From NCBI RefSeq assembly GCF_007830355.1, contig NZ_VLKO01000002.1, forward strand, positions 248,001-312,000: a DNA stretch of 64,000 nucleotides, in the 5' to 3' direction. A model generated the notes under the pieces. The model did no database searches. It was not told the origin of the DNA and worked only from the letters and a program-made list of their open reading frames with translations. The position numbers and the translations under genes were made by a program. This DNA is from Flavobacterium tiangeerense. Its GTDB lineage: Bacteria > Bacteroidota > Bacteroidia > Flavobacteriales > Flavobacteriaceae. Positions within the stretch are counted from its first letter, which is position 1, and each line of letters starts with the position of its first letter. Positions 52,689 to 61,586 of this stretch are shown piece by piece.

Positions 52689-55064
52689 TCATTCCCTAAC
52701 AATTTCAATCTTCCTCCTAATTTCGTTTCCAAATTCATCTACCACAGTGATATAATGAAACCCTGTTGTTGCCGAGATTGGCATTTCATGAAAAGTTTTC
52801 GTACTGCCTTTAAACACTTGGTCAACATACCAAAAAAGTTTACTATCTCTTTGCGAATGCGCTACTTTTAAAATCACAGGCTGAACTTCGCTATTAAAAT
52901 TCTTAGTCAGGTAGATTTTGCTATTTGTTTTCGGATAAATAAAATCCATTGTTGCGGTTTGTGTACCCATACAATCACTCCTAAACGGTGGCAATGGCAA
53001 ATATTCAATATGCTGACTTTTGTAATACCAAGCCATTACGGGTGGCAAAATGAACCAGTTCTTAGTGACTATATTTTCAATGTTTTCGCAACTACTGTTC
53101 ACTTGAAATTGCAGTAAATTATCCAAATGCACGGTTTTGTGATACGGACAAATCGAAGTGTTTTTCCCTTTTTTTGGAACGAGCTGTTTTATTGTTGGGC
53201 AACCGTCTTTGGCCAAATGACCACTCAAACTGCACACCTCAACTTCTTCTAAATCCTTAAATGGGGTATCAAACCATCGTTGTCTAGACAACAAATTAAA
53301 AACATCAAATAAAATTGGTGCCGCACTAGTGACACCCGTCAAGGTAGGTCTACCTTCTCCTGTCGCGTTACCCACCCATACACCTACCACATATCTCGCA
53401 TTGGTACCTATCGCCCACGCATCACGATTCCCGAAACTTGTTCCCGTTTTCCAAGCAATCTTGAGTGAACTATCATAAAATTTCCAAGCCTCATCACCTT
53501 CGGGACGATTGACTTGTTCCATTGCGTTATAAGTGAGCCAAATTGATCCTGCACCCAAGATGTTCTTTTGCTTGGTTTCGTCGCCAAAATCAACTTGAAC
53601 ATCATCCTGATAGTTTAATTCTGCAAATTCATTGGTTCTGTAGTTTCCTTGATTTTTATTGAAAAAATTTAAAGTTGAAGACAAACCAGCATAGGTTCGG
53701 CACAGATCCCATAAATTACTTTCGGCACCACCCAAAATAAGTGACAAACCGTAATGATCAGGCGGTTTTGAAATATCCCGTAATTTAAATCGCTGCAATT
53801 CTTCGTAAAATTTATTCACTCCAAAATCCTGTAACATCAATACAGATGGGATGTTCAAGGATCGTGCTAATGCCCGATGCGCTGGAACGGCTCCATCAAA
53901 TGTCAGGTTGAAATTCTGAGGCGTATAACCCGCAATCTGCGTTGGTATATCTGCCACTAATGTATTCGGCAACAACTCTCCATCATCTAGCATACCGGCG
54001 TATAAAAGCGGTTTCAGAATACTTCCTGTACTTCTTGGCGCATCAATAATATCGACATCTTTTTGATGATTCCCATCCGTAGGCGAGTTACCCACATAGC
54101 TCATCACTTTTCTATTCGAGACGTCAATTACCAAAATAGCCAAATTATGCACTTCATTTTGCTTGTATTGGTTGTAATAATACTTTGCAATTTGATTGAC
54201 CCTGTTTTGCAACCCAATCTCTACTGTCGTTTTCACCCGAGTTCCATCTTGATTCTTAGCTACTCTTTGCAATAAATGAGGTGCAATTTGTGGTAAATCA
54301 TACGGTTTTTGAGGCAAAGGTTCGTCTATAGAAAGTTTGTAAGTTTGCTTGTCAATTACACCTTCTTGGTTTAATTTCAACAACAGTCGGTTGCGTTTAC
54401 TCAATAATTTAACTTGGTTTTTTCCGGGATAAATTAAACTGGGCGCATTAGGTAAAACAGCTAAAGTTGCACTCTCGGCCCATGACAATTGATGGGATTG
54501 GACGCCAAAATACCGCCAAGAAGCCATTTCGAGACCCACTACATTCCCGCCAAAAGGAGCGTGCGCAGCATACAGTTCCAAAATTTCGTTTTTAGAATAG
54601 CCCAATTCTAATCGGGTGGCAAGAATGAGTTCGATTATTTTTTCAAAATAAGTTCGCCTTTTCCCGTTTCTGGATAAGCGAATAACTTGTTGCGTCAGCG
54701 TGCTTCCGCCCCGAACGACTTTGCCTGCTTTTCTATTTTGCTGGACAGCATTGACCATCGCCATAGGATTGAATCCGGGGTGTTTATAGAAATATTCGTC
54801 TTCAAAATAAACAATACATTTTTTGAACTTATCTGGAACGCTGTCTTGAGAAGGAAATCGCCATTGCCCATCGAGAGCAATTTTGGCACCAAGCAATTCG
54901 CCTTCTTTACTTTCAATCACCGTCGAATAAGGTTCTTGAAACAATGTTCCTGGCAATGAAAAATAATAAACCACCAACAGCAAAAAGGCTATTGATGATT
55001 TAATTTTATTTCTTTTTATCCAATTTTTGATGCGTTGCAAGAACGCTAATAGTTTATTTTTCAA
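52689..55064 (-). CDS. pbpC: Penicillin-binding protein 1C
   Basis: The 791-residue protein has one N-terminal membrane helix (about residues 22-40), a glycosyltransferase 51 domain (ECIVYFEDEYFYKHPGFNP-like region, then GGSTLTQQVIRL), a transpeptidase domain and the BiPBP C-terminal domain. The active Ser is S348 in GSILKP, with KTGTSFGNRDAW further on. It would build or repair peptidoglycan. Its partner alpha-2-macroglobulin gene lies upstream but is separated by the RAYT/REP unit. Confidence 0.96.
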   Translation of the reverse strand: MKNKLLAFLQRIKNWIKRNKIKSSIAFLLLVVYYFSLPGTLFQEPYSTVIESKEGELLGAKIALDGQWRFPSQDSVPDKFKKCIVYFEDEYFYKHPGFNPMAMVNAVQQNRKAGKVVRGGSTLTQQVIRLSRNGKRRTYFEKIIELILATRLELGYSKNEILELYAAHAPFGGNVVGLEMASWRYFGVQSHQLSWAESATLAVLPNAPSLIYPGKNQVKLLSKRNRLLLKLNQEGVIDKQTYKLSIDEPLPQKPYDLPQIAPHLLQRVAKNQDGTRVKTTVEIGLQNRVNQIAKYYYNQYKQNEVHNLAILVIDVSNRKVMSYVGNSPTDGNHQKDVDIIDAPRSTGSILKPLLYAGMLDDGELLPNTLVADIPTQIAGYTPQNFNLTFDGAVPAHRALARSLNIPSVLMLQDFGVNKFYEELQRFKLRDISKPPDHYGLSLILGGAESNLWDLCRTYAGLSSTLNFFNKNQGNYRTNEFAELNYQDDVQVDFGDETKQKNILGAGSIWLTYNAMEQVNRPEGDEAWKFYDSSLKIAWKTGTSFGNRDAWAIGTNARYVVGVWVGNATGEGRPTLTGVTSAAPILFDVFNLLSRQRWFDTPFKDLEEVEVCSLSGHLAKDGCPTIKQLVPKKGKNTSICPYHKTVHLDNLLQFQVNSSCENIENIVTKNWFILPPVMAWYYKSQHIEYLPLPPFRSDCMGTQTATMDFIYPKTNSKIYLTKNFNSEVQPVILKVAHSQRDSKLFWYVDQVFKGSTKTFHEMPISATTGFHYITVVDEFGNEIRRKIEIVRE

Positions 55065-55087: not shown

Positions 55088-55188
55088 CCTAACAGGTTTC
55101 TTTTAACCTGTTAGGTATGCTTTGACAATCCTAAAATAAAAATTAGTTTAACATAATAATACCTAACAGGTTTTAGAAACCTGTTAGG
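55088..55188. repeat. REP pair 1 (downstream of RAYT gene)
   Basis: Two palindromes sharing the arms CCTAACAGGTT / AACCTGTTAGG lie at 55088-55115 and 55162-55188, separated by a 46-base AT-rich spacer. The spacer aligns with that of REP pair 2 (TAT..TTT.CA.TCTA.AAATAAAAA..TTTAA..TAATA). Confidence 0.92.
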
Positions 55189-55197
55189 ATAAGTAAT

Positions 55198-55788
55198 CTA
55201 GTCATCCATTTTATAAATCGAATCAATTACGCCCTCATAAACCAATCTGTTTTCGTCGTGATAAAATTTAAAATTCTCTAAACCTCCAAATAGTTCAAGA
55301 ATAAAATCCCTAGCAATACTTGTTTCTTTATTTGACAAATAAGAGCGATAGGATGAACGTGAATACGTTTCGAATGATTTGGTAAATTTATGTTTAACAG
55401 GGTTTAAATGGGTATAAACTATCAATTGCTTCAAATAAGCTTCATTTTCGATTCTATTTCTTTGTAAATGTTCTTGAAATAAACTTCCTGTTCGATTATA
55501 AACGGTATTTATACTTTTGGCATACGAATTAAAAAAGTTAGAAAAAGGCAAATGAATTCTCTCTTTAAATTTTTCTGGCAACTCTTCCTTGTCTTTAATT
55601 CTTAACACAATATGAAAATGATTCTTGAGTAAACAGTAAGCATAAACATCCGCAATTGGTAAAAGATATTTCTTCATTTTCTCAAGAAAATAATTATAGT
55701 TTTTCTCCTCAATAAAAATATTCTCCTTGTTATTTCCTCTATTGTATATGTGATAATATTGACCTGATTCGAAAATATCTTTTTCCAT
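55198..55788 (-). CDS. REP-associated tyrosine transposase (RAYT, Y1 HUH family)
   Basis: The 196-residue protein is a Y1-type single-strand transposase of the RAYT branch. The HUH motif is H57-F-H59 in LLKNHFHIVLR, preceded by H13 in YYHIYNRGNNKENIF. The likely nucleophile is Y125 in QLIVYTHLNPVKH, the family's Y-x3-NPV segment. The gene is flanked on both sides by palindrome pairs (55088-55188 and 55811-55909), the substrates such enzymes cut. It looks intact. It is inserted between the alpha-2-macroglobulin gene and pbpC. Confidence 0.93.
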   Translation of the reverse strand: MEKDIFESGQYYHIYNRGNNKENIFIEEKNYNYFLEKMKKYLLPIADVYAYCLLKNHFHIVLRIKDKEELPEKFKERIHLPFSNFFNSYAKSINTVYNRTGSLFQEHLQRNRIENEAYLKQLIVYTHLNPVKHKFTKSFETYSRSSYRSYLSNKETSIARDFILELFGGLENFKFYHDENRLVYEGVIDSIYKMDD

Positions 55789-55810
55789 AGCTAATACCCT
55801 TTTTTATCAT

Positions 55811-55909
55811 CCTAATAGGTTTTGTAAACCTGTTAGGTATAATTTCATTCTAAAAATAAAAACCCTTTAAACTTTTGTAATACCTAACAGGTTTTAGAAA
55901 CCTGTTAGG
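55811..55909. repeat. REP pair 2 (upstream of RAYT gene)
   Basis: Palindromes at 55811-55837 (left arm with one change, CCTAATAGG) and 55883-55909 share the CCTAACAGGTT / AACCTGTTAGG arms. They are separated by a 45-base spacer homologous to that of pair 1 and in the same orientation. The right palindrome ends eight bases before the alpha-2-macroglobulin stop codon. Confidence 0.92.
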
Positions 55910-55916
55910 ATAGATA

Positions 55917-58900
55917 CTACTTCACAACCTGAACCCAAAAACCTTTAGTCCTTGCCAAAAATGTATTGTCATACATTGCTTCACATTGCAATCCAGGCAG
56001 ATAATAGGTTCCAAGATAAGAAGCATTCAGTAATATTCTAAACGTTTTGGTTTCACCCGATTTTAATCCAAAATAGAAATTGGTTCTATCATCACGAATA
56101 TCAATATAATCCGCAACGTTATTGGTAGCGTCTCCATAATCCGTGAAACGGGTATTTACAATTTCGAAACCAGAAGGCAAAATTTGTGACAAAGCCACAT
56201 TTTCTACACGTTCATTTTTTAGGTTTTTCACTGTTACCTCAGCAACAAATTCAGTTCCTTGATTGATTTTAGACACATCGATAACGCCTCCTTTTCTGTT
56301 TTTGAAAACAATCGAAGCCGAAACATTACTCTGAATCGCCTTTTCTTGTCCAATTGGAAGAATTCCTGTGTTCAGCACACGAACATACAATCTATTCTTT
56401 CTATTGTTTTTTAAAGTCACACTATTCGAACCCGTTTTGACAACCAAACTTCGGTCTGCAATGGTTTTTGTTGTTTTTACTGATTGTGCTTTTCCGTCTT
56501 TACTGAACTGGACATCGATTCCTTTTGGACCATTGCTTACAGAAAATTTAGCCATAGCATACAATCCATACGCCGTAGTTTGCGTACTCATCCATTGGTC
56601 ACTTGACATATCTTTGGCCAATTTTGTTGCCATTGCAAATGCTTTTTGCTTTTGCCCAAGCAATAACAATGTTTCTAGAGCCATGGCACGATTCCTATCA
56701 GCAGATCCGTAATAGTAATAATTATAATTCGAATTATCATCTATAGAAGTATTCAGCAACAACGATAAACCTGCCGATTTTTGTCCTGCCAATACGTAAG
56801 CCGAGGCCAAACGCAATTTACTTTCGTTCGAAATTCCTTTGGTTTCGCGCAATCTGTTCATCGAAGACAAATCGGGAGCTCCTGCCAACGCTAATGTGTA
56901 TAAGCGATACGATTGCGCCAAATCATTTCCATAACTCGGCATAAATCGCCATTGTTTGGCTTCTTTTTGCTGATACGAAATCCATTTTGATTTGAAATTG
57001 ATCGGCAAGAAATACCCTTTTTTCTCAGCTTCAATCATAAAATGTCCTGCATACGAAGAACCCCAATCATCGGCAACGGTTCCTCCTTGCCAGTATGCCA
57101 TTCCACCATTCGATAATTGAAAACCTCCCAAACGAGTAATTCCTGCGGTCACATTTTTTTGAATTAATTGCTGACGCGTAACATCCAAATCGACAATCTC
57201 ATTCAGATACAATTGTGGAAAAACAGACGAAGTCGTTTGCTCTACACAACCGTGAGGATATTGAATCAGATATTGTAATCGCCCGTTTAAATTGATCGTT
57301 GGCATCGAGGAAACCTCCAATTTTGCTTTATTACTTCCCGAAACACCAAATGTTTTCCAAAAAATAGTTTTAGTGCTATTCGGTTCCAAAATCACATCAG
57401 TAAATGTATTGGTCACTGGATTCGGATTGGTCATATCGATCTCTACATCATACACTGATTTTTCCTTTCCGGAAGTCGCTATAATTTGCACTTTCCCTAT
57501 TCCGGTAACAGAACCCACGGCCAAATTGAAATAGGCCATTTTTTCGTCAGGCTGAGGCAAAGTTAATTTTTGAGTGGCACTTCCAATAACTTTTAATCCG
57601 TTATTCGTTTTAATCTGAACCGTTACATTTTTGATGTTTTTCTCCATGGCAAAAATGGTCACTGGAATCGTCACTCTCTCGGATGGACTAATTTTTCTTG
57701 GCAACGAAGCCAAAACCATCAAAGGACTACGAACCGGAGTTGCTTTTTCGGCACTTCCATACGCACTTGAAGTTGCATCGCCAGCCACGATCATTGTTTT
57801 TACGGAGCCAATGTACTTCGGTAATTTTACTTGATGGGTTTTGGTTTGTCCTTTTTCTAATTTAAAAGGTCCCATATAAATTACAACCGGTTTGAAACGA
57901 TTGGCTTTTTTGGCTTTTCCACCACCCAAATCTTGGTCACCACCAATACTGAAAATCTGATTTACTTTTCCGCCATATGCTCCAATCACATCATCATAAA
58001 TATCCCAGGTTTTTACGCCCAAAGCTTCACGAACATAAAAACTATCCCAGGCATTTGGCGCTTTGAAACGGGTTAAATCCAATAATCCTTCGTCAACAAT
58101 GGCAATGGTGTAGGTCATTGCTTTTCCGGATTGTTCACTCACTTTTATAGCGAATGATTGCTCCGGACGCAACACATCAGGCATTACTAATTTGGGAGCT
58201 AAAATGGTGTTTTTATCAACCACTTCAATAGGCACAATTCCATACATTCGGATTGGCAAATCATTTTTGGTGGAAGCGTGTGGTTGTAAAAGCGTAATAT
58301 TAAAATACACATTTGGAGCCATAGCAGCCGTAATCGGAATGGTAACTTTGGTTTCTCCTTTTTGGGTCTTTGCCCAAAGTGTTTGTACTACTTTCGAACC
58401 ATTTTCAATAGAAATAAAAGCTCGTCCTCCTGCACTAGATGGGAACGAAATTTGAGCATTTTCACCCACAGCATACTTCTCCTTATCGGTTGAAAACACT
58501 AACATATTGGCCGTAGCAGCATCTGTATTTCTAGTTTTTCCAGACCACATTGGCCAATCGATATTTACCGTTAAAGCCGTTGCGTGTCCGCCAACAGCAT
58601 CAGAAACCCGAATCATATAACGTCCCCATTCTTCATCCGTCAAGGCAAAACGGACATTTCCTTTTCCGTTAGCATCGGTATTAATTGTAAAAGTTTTGTA
58701 CGAAGTCGTAGCATTATCCGAGTTATAATTCGATAAATTATCACTAGATGCATCCCACCACCAGCGCCATTCTACTTTATACACTTTTACTTCCAGGTTT
58801 TTAACCGACTTTGGTCTTCCGTTTTCATCGACCGTAACCACATCAAATTGGTTCGTAGTACGGGTTTCTAGCATTCCGTATTTGTTAGGCTCAGGTGACT

Positions 58901-61586
58901 TAATCCCCACATAAGTAGGGTACGGCGAGTAGGTCGTCGCTATAACATCAGTACTAAAATCGCCACCTTCTTCATACACTTTGGTAATAAACGACGCTTT
59001 CAACATTCCAGGTGCTTCTCCTTGTATTTTCGGGTCTATAGTAGCATTCGCTTTTCCAGTGACATCTAATTTACCTGAGAAAACGGTAACTTCTTCGGTG
59101 CTGAATTTTCGAACTAAATCATCAAAAATATACTTGTCATAATTTTTGAAAGTCGTTATTTGTTGCGAAAATTTGGCTTGCATTTCAACGTTCAAATTTT
59201 TGGCCACAGCGCCATGAAGCCAAGCCACTTCAAGGTTGCTAGTGTTTGGATAAGCCGAAGAAAGTATTGCTCGTTTGAAAGTGTTTTTGATTTTCAAACG
59301 ATTGGGTTTGATGGTTTCAATCTTGATGCTTTTGTAAAACTTCGCACCACCCACGCTAACCATTGCCTCCCAATTTCCTGTAGGCGCATCATTTGCTGTT
59401 GGAACTGTAAATGCAAAATGATTCCATTCATTCGATTTTTGAACCGTTTGATAGGTTACTTTTCCATTTGGATCAGCTAGTCTAAATTTTATAGGGTGTC
59501 CTAGTGGAATTTTATTTGAAGCATCATTCAAAATGAAAGACAAATACAAATTATCCCCAGGACGCCAAACGCCTCGTTCTCCATAAATGAATCCTTTGAG
59601 TCCTTTTTGTAAAGTCTCGCCAGACACATTAAAATTACTCACTGACAGTGAATTCCCGTCGTCTAATTTAACATAAGTAGACTCCGTACCTTGCGTTACA
59701 ATAGCAAAATAGGCAAATTTATCCAACTGAAAAGTCGCAATTCCATCGCTATTGGTAGTTCCTGTCGTTATTTTTTGCTGCTGAAAAGTATACAAATCTA
59801 CTCTTGCATTTGAAACTGGCTCTGTGGTGACAATATTATTTACGGCAAACAAATACGATTTGTTTTCGCCTCTTTTAGCAATTACACCCAAATCAGTAGC
59901 TAGAATATTAGTTGCTATTTTGGCATTATAAAAATACGAACTTGAGCAAGGATCCTGACTTTCTCTCCATTCGTAATCATCGTAGTAATAATCATCGTAA
60001 GAGTTTCCGCTGTAATTAACATCACTCTCATCAACCTCTTCTTCCTCTTCGGCTGTATCCTCATCAGCGGTTTCGCATTTGTACAAAGAATATTTTTTCT
60101 TGTAAACAAACTCTACTCTATAAATCGCACCTGGTTCAGGAGTAATAATTTTAGATAAATCCAAAGCAAAAGTGTTCCACTTACTTAGATTTAGTAATGT
60201 ATTTTCTTTTAAATTCAGAGTTGATTTGGCAATAGGTTGCGCCACTCTTTTTAGGTTTTGACTGCCATTGAGTTCGTTGTATTGCAAAAATTGCATGATG
60301 TTGTTTTTGTAAATTTTATACACTTTTACATCAACAGCACTCAGGTTTACAGCCTCAAAATTGAGTTTTAAGTTATTAGAACTTGGCAGAATTGTTCCGT
60401 TTTTTATAAAACGAATGCTTGGCTTTATTTCATCAAAGGATATTTTCTCGGTATAATTCTCATTTAACTTTCCACCGTATTCACTTTCTATTCCCTGAAA
60501 AACTTCTAACAACAGTTCTCCGGTAAGCTTTTGCAAATCCACAACTGGCTCAGGCTCAACAATAGCAACTTCTTCGGGTTCCTCAACCACAGCGCTATCA
60601 ACGGCCACGGCCGAAGTATCAACAGTTACAACTGCTTCCACTGGTTCAACTGGTTCTGGAGCCACTTCAACAGGTTTTTGAACGGGTACTTCATTACTAA
60701 AATAAACTTTCAACACATTTCCTTGTGCAGAAAACTTTAAATTATTGGTGTTCTGAATGGCGACTAATCCTTTAAAATCTTGTCCTTTTTCTAAGGGTTC
60801 CGAAAAATTAATAGACAAGGTTTGACTATCCCCTTCTTGAATTTCGGTCTTAACCACTTTAAACTCTTTCAATGACGTGATTGGGAAATCGATAGTCCCT
60901 TTTTGATCGATATCAAAATCACTTCCGTCGTATTTTATCTCCAAATTGCTTTTAGATTCCAATCGTTGAATGCTGTCAATTCTGAACTTGAATTCTTTTC
61001 CAACTGCATTCGTTTTTTCGAAAACAATTTTCAAATCATCTCCGTTATGCTCGGCTTCAATCAATTTTTTAGCGGTTTCCAAATCAATATTGTCTGCGGT
61101 TTTGAGTACCGCATTCAAGTATTGGTATTCTGGGCTGTAGGACTGCAAATCCAGCGTATTGACCACAAAATCTTGCTTAATCGTTTTTACCGTAAAGTTA
61201 AAATTGGAAAGTATTTTATCTTTTTCGGCAACCTTTGGATTCAGTTGGTCCAAATGCAAAGTCACCTGATATTCCGTACCTGATTCCAGCTTTTTTTCAG
61301 GAATAAAAGCAATCGTATTGCTCGAAAGCGCAATTACTTTTCCGTCTACATTAGGAGAAATAGTGAACAAATCGTTATCTAAAACCTCATTGACTTTCCA
61401 TTCTTTTTTATCAAAAGCCAAAACTACCCTAATATCCGATTCTGAAGAGACAATTCCTCCCGTAAAACTCACGATAAACTCTTTGAATAAGGAGAAATCT
61501 GAATTAAAATCGGCGGCAGATTTTCTACCACACGCTTGAAACAAAAAAAACACACAAAACACATAAATTAATCCTTTTGTTTTCAC
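55917..61586 (-). CDS. Alpha-2-macroglobulin family lipoprotein
   Basis: The 1889-residue protein has a lipoprotein-like signal (FLFQAC). An MG-domain region fills the N-terminal two thirds, with an acidic Pro/Val/Glu-rich linker near residues 310-350 and another acidic Asp/Tyr patch near 520. The thioester motif C1447-VEQ1450 (HGCVEQTTSSV) is intact, so it can covalently trap attacking proteases. Bacterial forms work at the outer membrane with PBP1C to protect cells when peptidoglycan is breached. pbpC lies downstream on the same strand, beyond the RAYT/REP unit. Confidence 0.96.
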   Translation of the reverse strand: MKTKGLIYVFCVFFLFQACGRKSAADFNSDFSLFKEFIVSFTGGIVSSESDIRVVLAFDKKEWKVNEVLDNDLFTISPNVDGKVIALSSNTIAFIPEKKLESGTEYQVTLHLDQLNPKVAEKDKILSNFNFTVKTIKQDFVVNTLDLQSYSPEYQYLNAVLKTADNIDLETAKKLIEAEHNGDDLKIVFEKTNAVGKEFKFRIDSIQRLESKSNLEIKYDGSDFDIDQKGTIDFPITSLKEFKVVKTEIQEGDSQTLSINFSEPLEKGQDFKGLVAIQNTNNLKFSAQGNVLKVYFSNEVPVQKPVEVAPEPVEPVEAVVTVDTSAVAVDSAVVEEPEEVAIVEPEPVVDLQKLTGELLLEVFQGIESEYGGKLNENYTEKISFDEIKPSIRFIKNGTILPSSNNLKLNFEAVNLSAVDVKVYKIYKNNIMQFLQYNELNGSQNLKRVAQPIAKSTLNLKENTLLNLSKWNTFALDLSKIITPEPGAIYRVEFVYKKKYSLYKCETADEDTAEEEEEVDESDVNYSGNSYDDYYYDDYEWRESQDPCSSSYFYNAKIATNILATDLGVIAKRGENKSYLFAVNNIVTTEPVSNARVDLYTFQQQKITTGTTNSDGIATFQLDKFAYFAIVTQGTESTYVKLDDGNSLSVSNFNVSGETLQKGLKGFIYGERGVWRPGDNLYLSFILNDASNKIPLGHPIKFRLADPNGKVTYQTVQKSNEWNHFAFTVPTANDAPTGNWEAMVSVGGAKFYKSIKIETIKPNRLKIKNTFKRAILSSAYPNTSNLEVAWLHGAVAKNLNVEMQAKFSQQITTFKNYDKYIFDDLVRKFSTEEVTVFSGKLDVTGKANATIDPKIQGEAPGMLKASFITKVYEEGGDFSTDVIATTYSPYPTYVGIKSPEPNKYGMLETRTTNQFDVVTVDENGRPKSVKNLEVKVYKVEWRWWWDASSDNLSNYNSDNATTSYKTFTINTDANGKGNVRFALTDEEWGRYMIRVSDAVGGHATALTVNIDWPMWSGKTRNTDAATANMLVFSTDKEKYAVGENAQISFPSSAGGRAFISIENGSKVVQTLWAKTQKGETKVTIPITAAMAPNVYFNITLLQPHASTKNDLPIRMYGIVPIEVVDKNTILAPKLVMPDVLRPEQSFAIKVSEQSGKAMTYTIAIVDEGLLDLTRFKAPNAWDSFYVREALGVKTWDIYDDVIGAYGGKVNQIFSIGGDQDLGGGKAKKANRFKPVVIYMGPFKLEKGQTKTHQVKLPKYIGSVKTMIVAGDATSSAYGSAEKATPVRSPLMVLASLPRKISPSERVTIPVTIFAMEKNIKNVTVQIKTNNGLKVIGSATQKLTLPQPDEKMAYFNLAVGSVTGIGKVQIIATSGKEKSVYDVEIDMTNPNPVTNTFTDVILEPNSTKTIFWKTFGVSGSNKAKLEVSSMPTINLNGRLQYLIQYPHGCVEQTTSSVFPQLYLNEIVDLDVTRQQLIQKNVTAGITRLGGFQLSNGGMAYWQGGTVADDWGSSYAGHFMIEAEKKGYFLPINFKSKWISYQQKEAKQWRFMPSYGNDLAQSYRLYTLALAGAPDLSSMNRLRETKGISNESKLRLASAYVLAGQKSAGLSLLLNTSIDDNSNYNYYYYGSADRNRAMALETLLLLGQKQKAFAMATKLAKDMSSDQWMSTQTTAYGLYAMAKFSVSNGPKGIDVQFSKDGKAQSVKTTKTIADRSLVVKTGSNSVTLKNNRKNRLYVRVLNTGILPIGQEKAIQSNVSASIVFKNRKGGVIDVSKINQGTEFVAEVTVKNLKNERVENVALSQILPSGFEIVNTRFTDYGDATNNVADYIDIRDDRTNFYFGLKSGETKTFRILLNASYLGTYYLPGLQCEAMYDNTFLARTKGFWVQVVK

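Follow-up and report, generated by a model that had tools for sequence, protein, structure and literature searches.

A 64-kb stretch of the Flavobacterium tiangeerense genome, referred to here as the window, carries one RAYT-like gene with a pair of REP-like palindromes on each side. The question raised by this locus is whether the gene and its palindromes travel together as a mobile element, whether the palindromes are substrates that the encoded protein spreads, or whether they act locally beside a host gene. The best explanation, which we hold to be quite probable, is that of an anchored single-copy RAYT between a2M and pbpC, with one REPIN-like pair per side and, presumably, a mechanism resembling that of RAYTs studied elsewhere.

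The RAYT open reading frame (55198–55788, reverse strand) is intact and encodes a protein of 196 amino acids. The neighbour downstream of it (52689–55064, reverse strand) is an open reading frame that we take to be pbpC, encoding penicillin-binding protein 1C, and the neighbour upstream (55917–61586, reverse strand) presumably encodes a member of the alpha-2-macroglobulin family (a2M, yfhM-like); both are found at 27 loci of the clade. On the pbpC side, the outer REP-like palindrome (palindrome 1, 55088–55115, forward strand) has perfect arms and a loop of 6, and is separated by a spacer (55116–55161, no strand assigned) from an inner one (palindrome 2, 55162–55188, reverse strand), which is perfect and inverted with respect to the first. 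On the a2M side, the REP-like palindrome by the RAYT gene start (palindrome 3, 55811–55837, forward strand) has one stem mismatch, and a second spacer (55838–55882, likewise without a strand) leads to the perfect outer palindrome (palindrome 4, 55883–55909, reverse strand). All four share the core CCTAACAGGTT/AACCTGTTAGG, one arm of palindrome 3 reading CCTAATAGGTT. Within each pair one palindrome is an inverted copy of the other, and the orientation is identical for both pairs. Four palindromes forming two same-orientation pairs around one intact HUH/Y1 gene had been reported in a first-pass annotation of this DNA, and this arrangement is confirmed; the spacers measure 46 bases on the pbpC side and 45 on the a2M side, as had been claimed.

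The clustering of these repeats exceeds that in shuffled sequence. With at most one mismatch, the 11-base arm occurs nine times in the window, eight of them at the RAYT locus, while shuffled windows hold a mean of 0.87 and nine were reached in none of 100 shuffles. Each pair is able to fold as a single long hairpin (z −6.1 to −8.2, two strands), and is thus like a REPIN in consisting of two inverted REPs that form one hairpin. It had also been proposed that the pairs are near copies of each other. This is true of palindromes 2 and 4, which are alike at 35 of 35 bases, but hardly of the spacers, whose alignment is equalled by 74 of 2000 shuffles; the pbpC-side spacer is far closer to the pbpC-side spacer of F. 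turcicum (score 40) than to the a2M-side spacer of its own locus (13.5). Because the two spacers have diverged, the accompanying suggestion of recent activity or conversion between the pairs finds no support. Terminator-like matches fall on three of the four palindromes, with four matches in the region against 0.2 in shuffles. A promoter scan of the locus gave three candidates, with 5.7 in shuffles, and a plasmid search with the locus gave no match. By E-value, Rfam returned ten matches, all to microRNA precursor models; these were rejected, as they lie far below the gathering scores and any long hairpin can give such matches.

The protein is a RAYT by its predicted fold. The predicted model has a mean pLDDT of 85, and a fold search against PDB chains places 4er8, the E. 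coli RAYT on a REP hairpin, at rank 1 (E 5.5e-8, probability 1.00), followed by the IS608 and ISDra2 transposases; a HUH motif with a single catalytic tyrosine thus sits in a TnpA-REP-like predicted fold. The motif is NHFH (H57, H59), the tyrosine is assigned by homology to Y125, and FQ at 104–105 and YTHLNP are also present. The residues H57-F58-H59 and Y125, to which attention had been drawn earlier, are invariant in 17 aligned sequences, the window protein included. Family models recover the protein below their thresholds (NCBIfam NF047646, REP_Tyr_transpos, 55.2 bits with a cut-off of 80; Pfam PF01797, Y1_Tnp, 15.7 bits with a cut-off of 23), and a sequence search of the PDB gave no meaningful hit (best E 0.21). 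Among named relatives, F. turcicum is the closest that was found, with a protein 92% identical. With dN/dS of 0.07–0.15 in seven pairs, the RAYT gene is, to judge from these comparisons, under purifying selection, and in every pair the values are lower in the neighbours (0.018–0.037 for pbpC and 0.012–0.090 for a2M). The gene is present as a single copy, since the genome holds one full match and otherwise only a partial one of 49 residues at 39%. Unlike IS200/IS605 elements, which have multiple near-identical copies scattered over a genome, it occurs once, at an address shared with relatives.

Relatives have the gene at the same address. All but one of the 28 rows in the RAYT clade of palindrome class A have both neighbours. 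Of these 27, the genus search supplied 12 and named records the other 15, of which one is titled [Flexibacter] and the rest Flavobacterium; four of these 15 have proteins already represented among the 12. The sole exception is L103, a Salinivirgaceae contig with 51% identity. RAYT, pbpC and a2M are co-directional in 12 of 12 genomes. RAYT protein distances correlate with those of pbpC (r 0.918) and a2M (0.905) about as the neighbours do with each other (0.915) over 21 of the 27 loci, L091 and L102 having been omitted along with L090, L097, L099 and L105, whose proteins are identical to kept rows. Over 19 close loci the same three correlations are 0.573, 0.656 and 0.652, and none of the correlations was reached in 999 permutations. 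The earlier idea that the pairs may be the ends of a mobile RAYT unit is not supported, given the single copy, the 27 of 28 common addresses and the correlations of 0.918 and 0.905 with the neighbours. Between L027 and L028, synonymous divergence is 0.24 in the RAYT gene against 0.51 and 0.50 in the flanking genes, a hint that this segment may have recombined between species.

Presence at the address is much less regular. The gene occurs there in 12 of 75 genomes with pbpC, and no RAYT was found at any of the 40 a2M/pbpC junctions read among the 63 other pbpC genomes. On a pbpC tree (200 residues) of 52 of the 75 genomes, comprising all 12 that carry the gene and 40 of the 63 that lack it, presence requires 12 changes, with a mean of 11.0 for shuffled labels, and well-supported branches force seven. 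RAYT distances follow those of the neighbours, as in vertical inheritance, yet presence on the pbpC tree is as scattered as random labels, which calls either for many losses or for exchange of this region among species. Palindrome remains occur at three of the 40 gene-less junctions: one pair in G049, the spacer of which looks homologous to the pbpC-side pair of G063, one hybrid palindrome carrying both outer flanks in G094, and a decayed pair in G099. The plain reading is of an old gene with one address and frequent loss, sometimes via deletion between palindromes; exchange of the a2M–pbpC region between species may also have played a part. Many of the gene-less junctions (L106–L145) hold other repeats, of the CAGATTTTGCAGAT type or the CTTTGCGAACTTTGCG type, or a AACTCTGTCAGAGTT palindrome, and the junction seems to be a collector of repeats.

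A search of the F. tiangeerense genome for a loop of 5, allowing three mismatches at most, found eight palindromes, three at the gene and five elsewhere (palindrome 1, with its longer loop, was found by a separate search). Those elsewhere are perfect on contigs C3, C9 and C10, with one mismatch on C4 and two on C1. All five have an A before the core and a T after it and lack the T/TA tag of the gene-side palindromes, and were rejected as copies of the gene-side pairs. Genome searches found no tagged palindrome away from the RAYT gene in this genome. F. turcicum is similar, with five exact-core palindromes, three at the gene and two untagged. Untagged palindromes or halves at L019:12261, L021:3810 and L024:2269 lie close to a longer repeat, which starts (A)GCCCCGATGGAAG and ends near AGCGGGAC.

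Other relatives do hold dispersed copies. In ten of them, each with a RAYT at least 68% identical, tagged palindromes number 22 (G102), 22 (G121), 20 (G056), 16 (G042), 12 (G077), 10 (G063), 8 (G057), 4 (G112), 2 (G054) and 1 (G040), gene-flanking ones included; by the same count F. tiangeerense has 3, and G097, with a RAYT 54% identical, has 0. Eight gene-less genomes, picked for having palindromes, have 13, 11, 7, 7, 7, 4, 2 and 1; the 20 genomes of this tagged count are a chosen set. Dispersed copies, as a REPIN has them, were thus not found in F. tiangeerense and are present in several relatives. The proposal in the first-pass annotation of a Bacteroidota RAYT in a REPtron-like arrangement is supported. 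All 20 dispersed units that were fetched lie outside any open reading frame of at least 100 amino acids. The GT[AG]G tetranucleotide at the hairpin foot of canonical REPs is absent, and TAT flanks are found instead, at the outer side of 65 and the inner side of 76 of the 83 oriented palindromes from 23 loci (three more palindromes are unoriented). It may be that the TAT flank serves as a strand mark or guide.

In 23 of 45 distinct pairs the loop of one palindrome matches that of its partner when inverted, where 6.6 are expected and none of 10000 shuffles gave as many; the pair therefore behaves as a unit. At orthologous sites the pair is kept in G006 and G057, reduced to a single hybrid palindrome in G015, G052 and, in decayed form, G096, missing in G109, G063 and G054, and in G053, G083 and G108 other palindromes are in its place. 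A joined-flank search in 21 chosen genomes resolved no clean insertion border or target duplication at orthologous sites, and no insertion point or duplication is claimed, because the borders are obscured by further repeats or differences in length. At L195 and L201, the spacer between two class A palindromes contains one of class C (AAACCCGACAGG..CCTGTCGGGTTT), as though it had inserted there. To the left of the L202 pair lies a stretch of about 150 bases belonging to another repeat family, of which contigs C53, C74, C77, C79 and C107 of G052 hold many neighbouring copies.

Across the genus, a match at E 1e-10 is present in 58 of 150 genomes. Seventy loci from the genus search were studied, and four partial places (G003, G116 and two in G125) were omitted, so that RAYT classes may be undercounted in the class-count comparison. 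Patterned palindromes lie within 330 bases on both sides of 73 of 87 RAYT loci, on one side of 11 and on neither side of three. On a RAYT tree of 85 rows, two of the 87 proteins being shorter than 140 amino acids and left out, the nine palindrome classes require 12 changes, against a minimum of 9 and 51.5 in shuffles, none of 200 being as low; the class patterns were written after the flanking palindromes had been inspected. Each of the classes B, C, E, G and H occupies one side of a branch, as does A apart from L163; this is not so for D, F and I. The class patterns probably misassign L163 and L154, which raises the number of changes. Palindrome class thus tracks the RAYT tree to a large extent, though not without exception.

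An address is not strictly tied to one class. When loci are linked by any shared open reading frame of at least 100 amino acids, not necessarily on both flanks, clusters of a single class comprise 27 loci for A, 14 and 4 for B, 7 for C, 6 for E, 5 for D, and 2 each for G and H. Two clusters are mixed, one with F, D and I (six loci) and one with F, G and L163 (five loci), and nine loci share no flanking open reading frame with others. Polar pairs occur in classes A and B, and the other classes have mostly single symmetric palindromes.

Palindrome counts go with the matching RAYT class. Class A palindromes are present in 12 of 12 genomes with a class A RAYT (median 17.5) and in 32 of 138 without (median 0; p 4e-11 for with versus without), and class B palindromes in 18 of 18 genomes with a class B RAYT (median 8.5) and 42 of 132 without, the full presence in both cases being partly by construction, because flanking palindromes are counted. 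A class B RAYT is no predictor of class A palindromes (p 0.42). Class B palindromes do accompany a class A RAYT (p 0.0016), for which common descent may be the reason. A phylogeny-paired test of class A RAYT against palindrome count, with seven supported pairs (average 3.2 in favour and 0.1 against), gave the expected direction and was not significant (median p 0.25). Orphan populations also occur: five of the 138 genomes without a class A RAYT hold 10–20 class A palindromes, and 14 genomes without a class B RAYT hold 8–62 class B palindromes. The highest of these numbers, 62, is that of G008, which has no match to the window RAYT family at E 1e-10.

The proposed mechanism borrows from RAYTs that have been studied (PMC8266576; PMC8049555), in which the protein recognises a single strand in its folded form, the tyrosine nicks it and pairs spread in trans. 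By homology with these, the window protein would bind the folded single-stranded palindrome, Y125 would nick it, and pairs would be excised or copied in trans into intergenic DNA. The RAYT gene itself would not be moved by transposition, but inherited with its neighbours and often lost. Comparison among genomes establishes, at the level of sequence, the co-diversification, the shared address, the dispersal in several relatives, the unit-like pairs and their collapse; the pairs are likely to be the substrate of the RAYT. For F. tiangeerense we infer that the dispersed pair population has died out, and the enzyme may be active there only at the flanks of its own gene, or may have some other role.

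Three other explanations were considered. The locus might be a mobile IS200-like element in which the RAYT gene and the flanking pairs, as ends, jump together, and the palindromes at both ends, the patchy presence at the site and the gene-less remains in G049, G094 and G099 could be read in this way. With one copy in the genome, both neighbours common to 27 of 28 clade rows (only L103, at 51% identity, lies elsewhere) and RAYT distances that track those of the neighbours, we regard such an element as very improbable. Even harder to credit is an unrelated repeat family that favours the intergenic site and is linked to the RAYT only by accident. Other repeats do occupy the same junction in gene-less genomes, and there are orphan palindrome populations, but against an accidental link stand classes B, C, E, G and H, and A bar L163, each keeping to one side of a RAYT-tree branch, and the 12 changes in place of 51.5 for all nine classes.

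A domesticated host gene, beside palindromes that act locally as terminators, at mRNA ends or in intergenic regulation and have no spreading role, is unlikely. It is in keeping with purifying selection, with the terminator-like matches on three of four palindromes, with the co-directional RAYT, pbpC and a2M in 12 of 12 genomes, and with the existence of palindromes in genomes without any matching RAYT; no tagged copies were found off-locus in F. tiangeerense, nor, among exact cores, in F. turcicum. However, the same tagged pairs are dispersed in several gene-bearing relatives, and genomes with a given RAYT class tend to have more of its palindromes, if not significantly when phylogeny-paired. 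The first-pass annotation had held that a lack of other copies, together with a conserved position shared by all relatives, would argue for a static, domesticated gene. As far as the genome was searched, no tagged copies were found elsewhere in it, and the position is shared, but relatives with the gene at the same position hold dispersed copies; "domesticated" therefore fits, and the absence of any link to palindrome spread does not follow. An anchored RAYT with the pairs as its likely substrate remains the preferred reading.

For the genus as a whole a broader picture can be sketched, tentatively and as one that could well prove wrong. Flavobacterium RAYT-REP systems might comprise about nine parallel nuclease/hairpin pairs, each lineage at its own address and with its own palindrome, with an A/T trinucleotide (TAT versus ATA) in place of GTAG marking the strand in the two polar-pair lineages. 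The RAYT would come and go as an alternative allele, through deletion bounded by palindromes or because species exchange the region; the palindrome population would rise with it and decay afterwards. That two flank-ORF clusters mix classes makes these parallel pairs less probable.

RAYTs and REPINs are already in print, as are the vertical inheritance of the former and, for Bacteroidetes, atypical structures flanking the gene; no description of this Flavobacterium palindrome family or of the RAYT addresses was found in the open-licence literature searched. In the relevant passages of PMC3116915 and PMC8049555, the Pseudomonas RAYT is described as single copy and vertically inherited and singlets as doublet remnants, and a REPIN, in PMC3116915, is an inverted palindrome doublet able to form one hairpin. 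The Flavobacterium family likewise has inverted intergenic doublets that form one hairpin, beside a RAYT. Unlike the Pseudomonas REPINs as presented there, it has TAT flanks, CCTAACAGG arms and no GTAG, and at most 22 tagged palindromes per counted genome, with none found off-gene in F. tiangeerense. The predicted fold (4er8), the HUH motif with one tyrosine and the gene-flanking palindromes are shared with E. coli TnpA-REP, going by the sections seen of PMC6006769 and PMC8266576. However, the window protein has NHFH and FQ where that of E. coli has DHLH and WE, and the window palindromes, unlike E. coli REPs, have stems without a bulge, perfect in three of the four, and no GT[AG]G at the foot.

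Among the TnpA-Y1 subclasses of PMC6006769, as far as its excerpts define them, subclass 2.6 of the Bacteroidetes has atypical flanking structures without GT[AG]G and copies elsewhere in the genome. The window RAYT resembles it in phylum and in such flanking structures, but the class A clade does not have the motifs of subclass 2.6 (NH[LIV]H, WQ and YIH[QN]NP). The motifs of subclass 2.1 (NH[YF]H, FQ and Y[IV]HLNP; PMC6006769) are closer, as NHFH and FQ fit, and in the third motif, which 23 of 29 class A rows fit, the YTHLNP of the window protein differs by one letter. Subclass 2.1 is described in the same paper as lacking REP-like sequences in the vicinity, with proteins of 238 amino acids in the median, whereas the window RAYT has palindromes nearby and a length of 196.

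RAYTs are characterised, in the part of PMC8049555 that bears on this, as bacterial transposases that have become domesticated, with no known use for the host. Flavobacterium, whose many RAYT lineages mostly keep to fixed addresses, have different palindromes and are absent here and there, offers a natural experiment on RAYT function, and also on the speed of palindrome decay without a RAYT. Several related protein/hairpin pairs without GTAG would, in addition, make the specificity of a single-strand HUH nuclease directly testable.

The F. tiangeerense genome has further Y1 genes. A second, very divergent one, read in two pieces, lies at L019:4298–4845 (about G000:C3:50298–50845), with repeats of the GCGCGGAATTGCATTCCGTGCCCAC type around it, and is perhaps another RAYT with its own repeat family. 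An intact Y1 gene at G000:C8:72419–72760 (L009, L025), presumably IS200-like, gives the strongest Y1 match of the genome, with 96.7 bits to PF01797.
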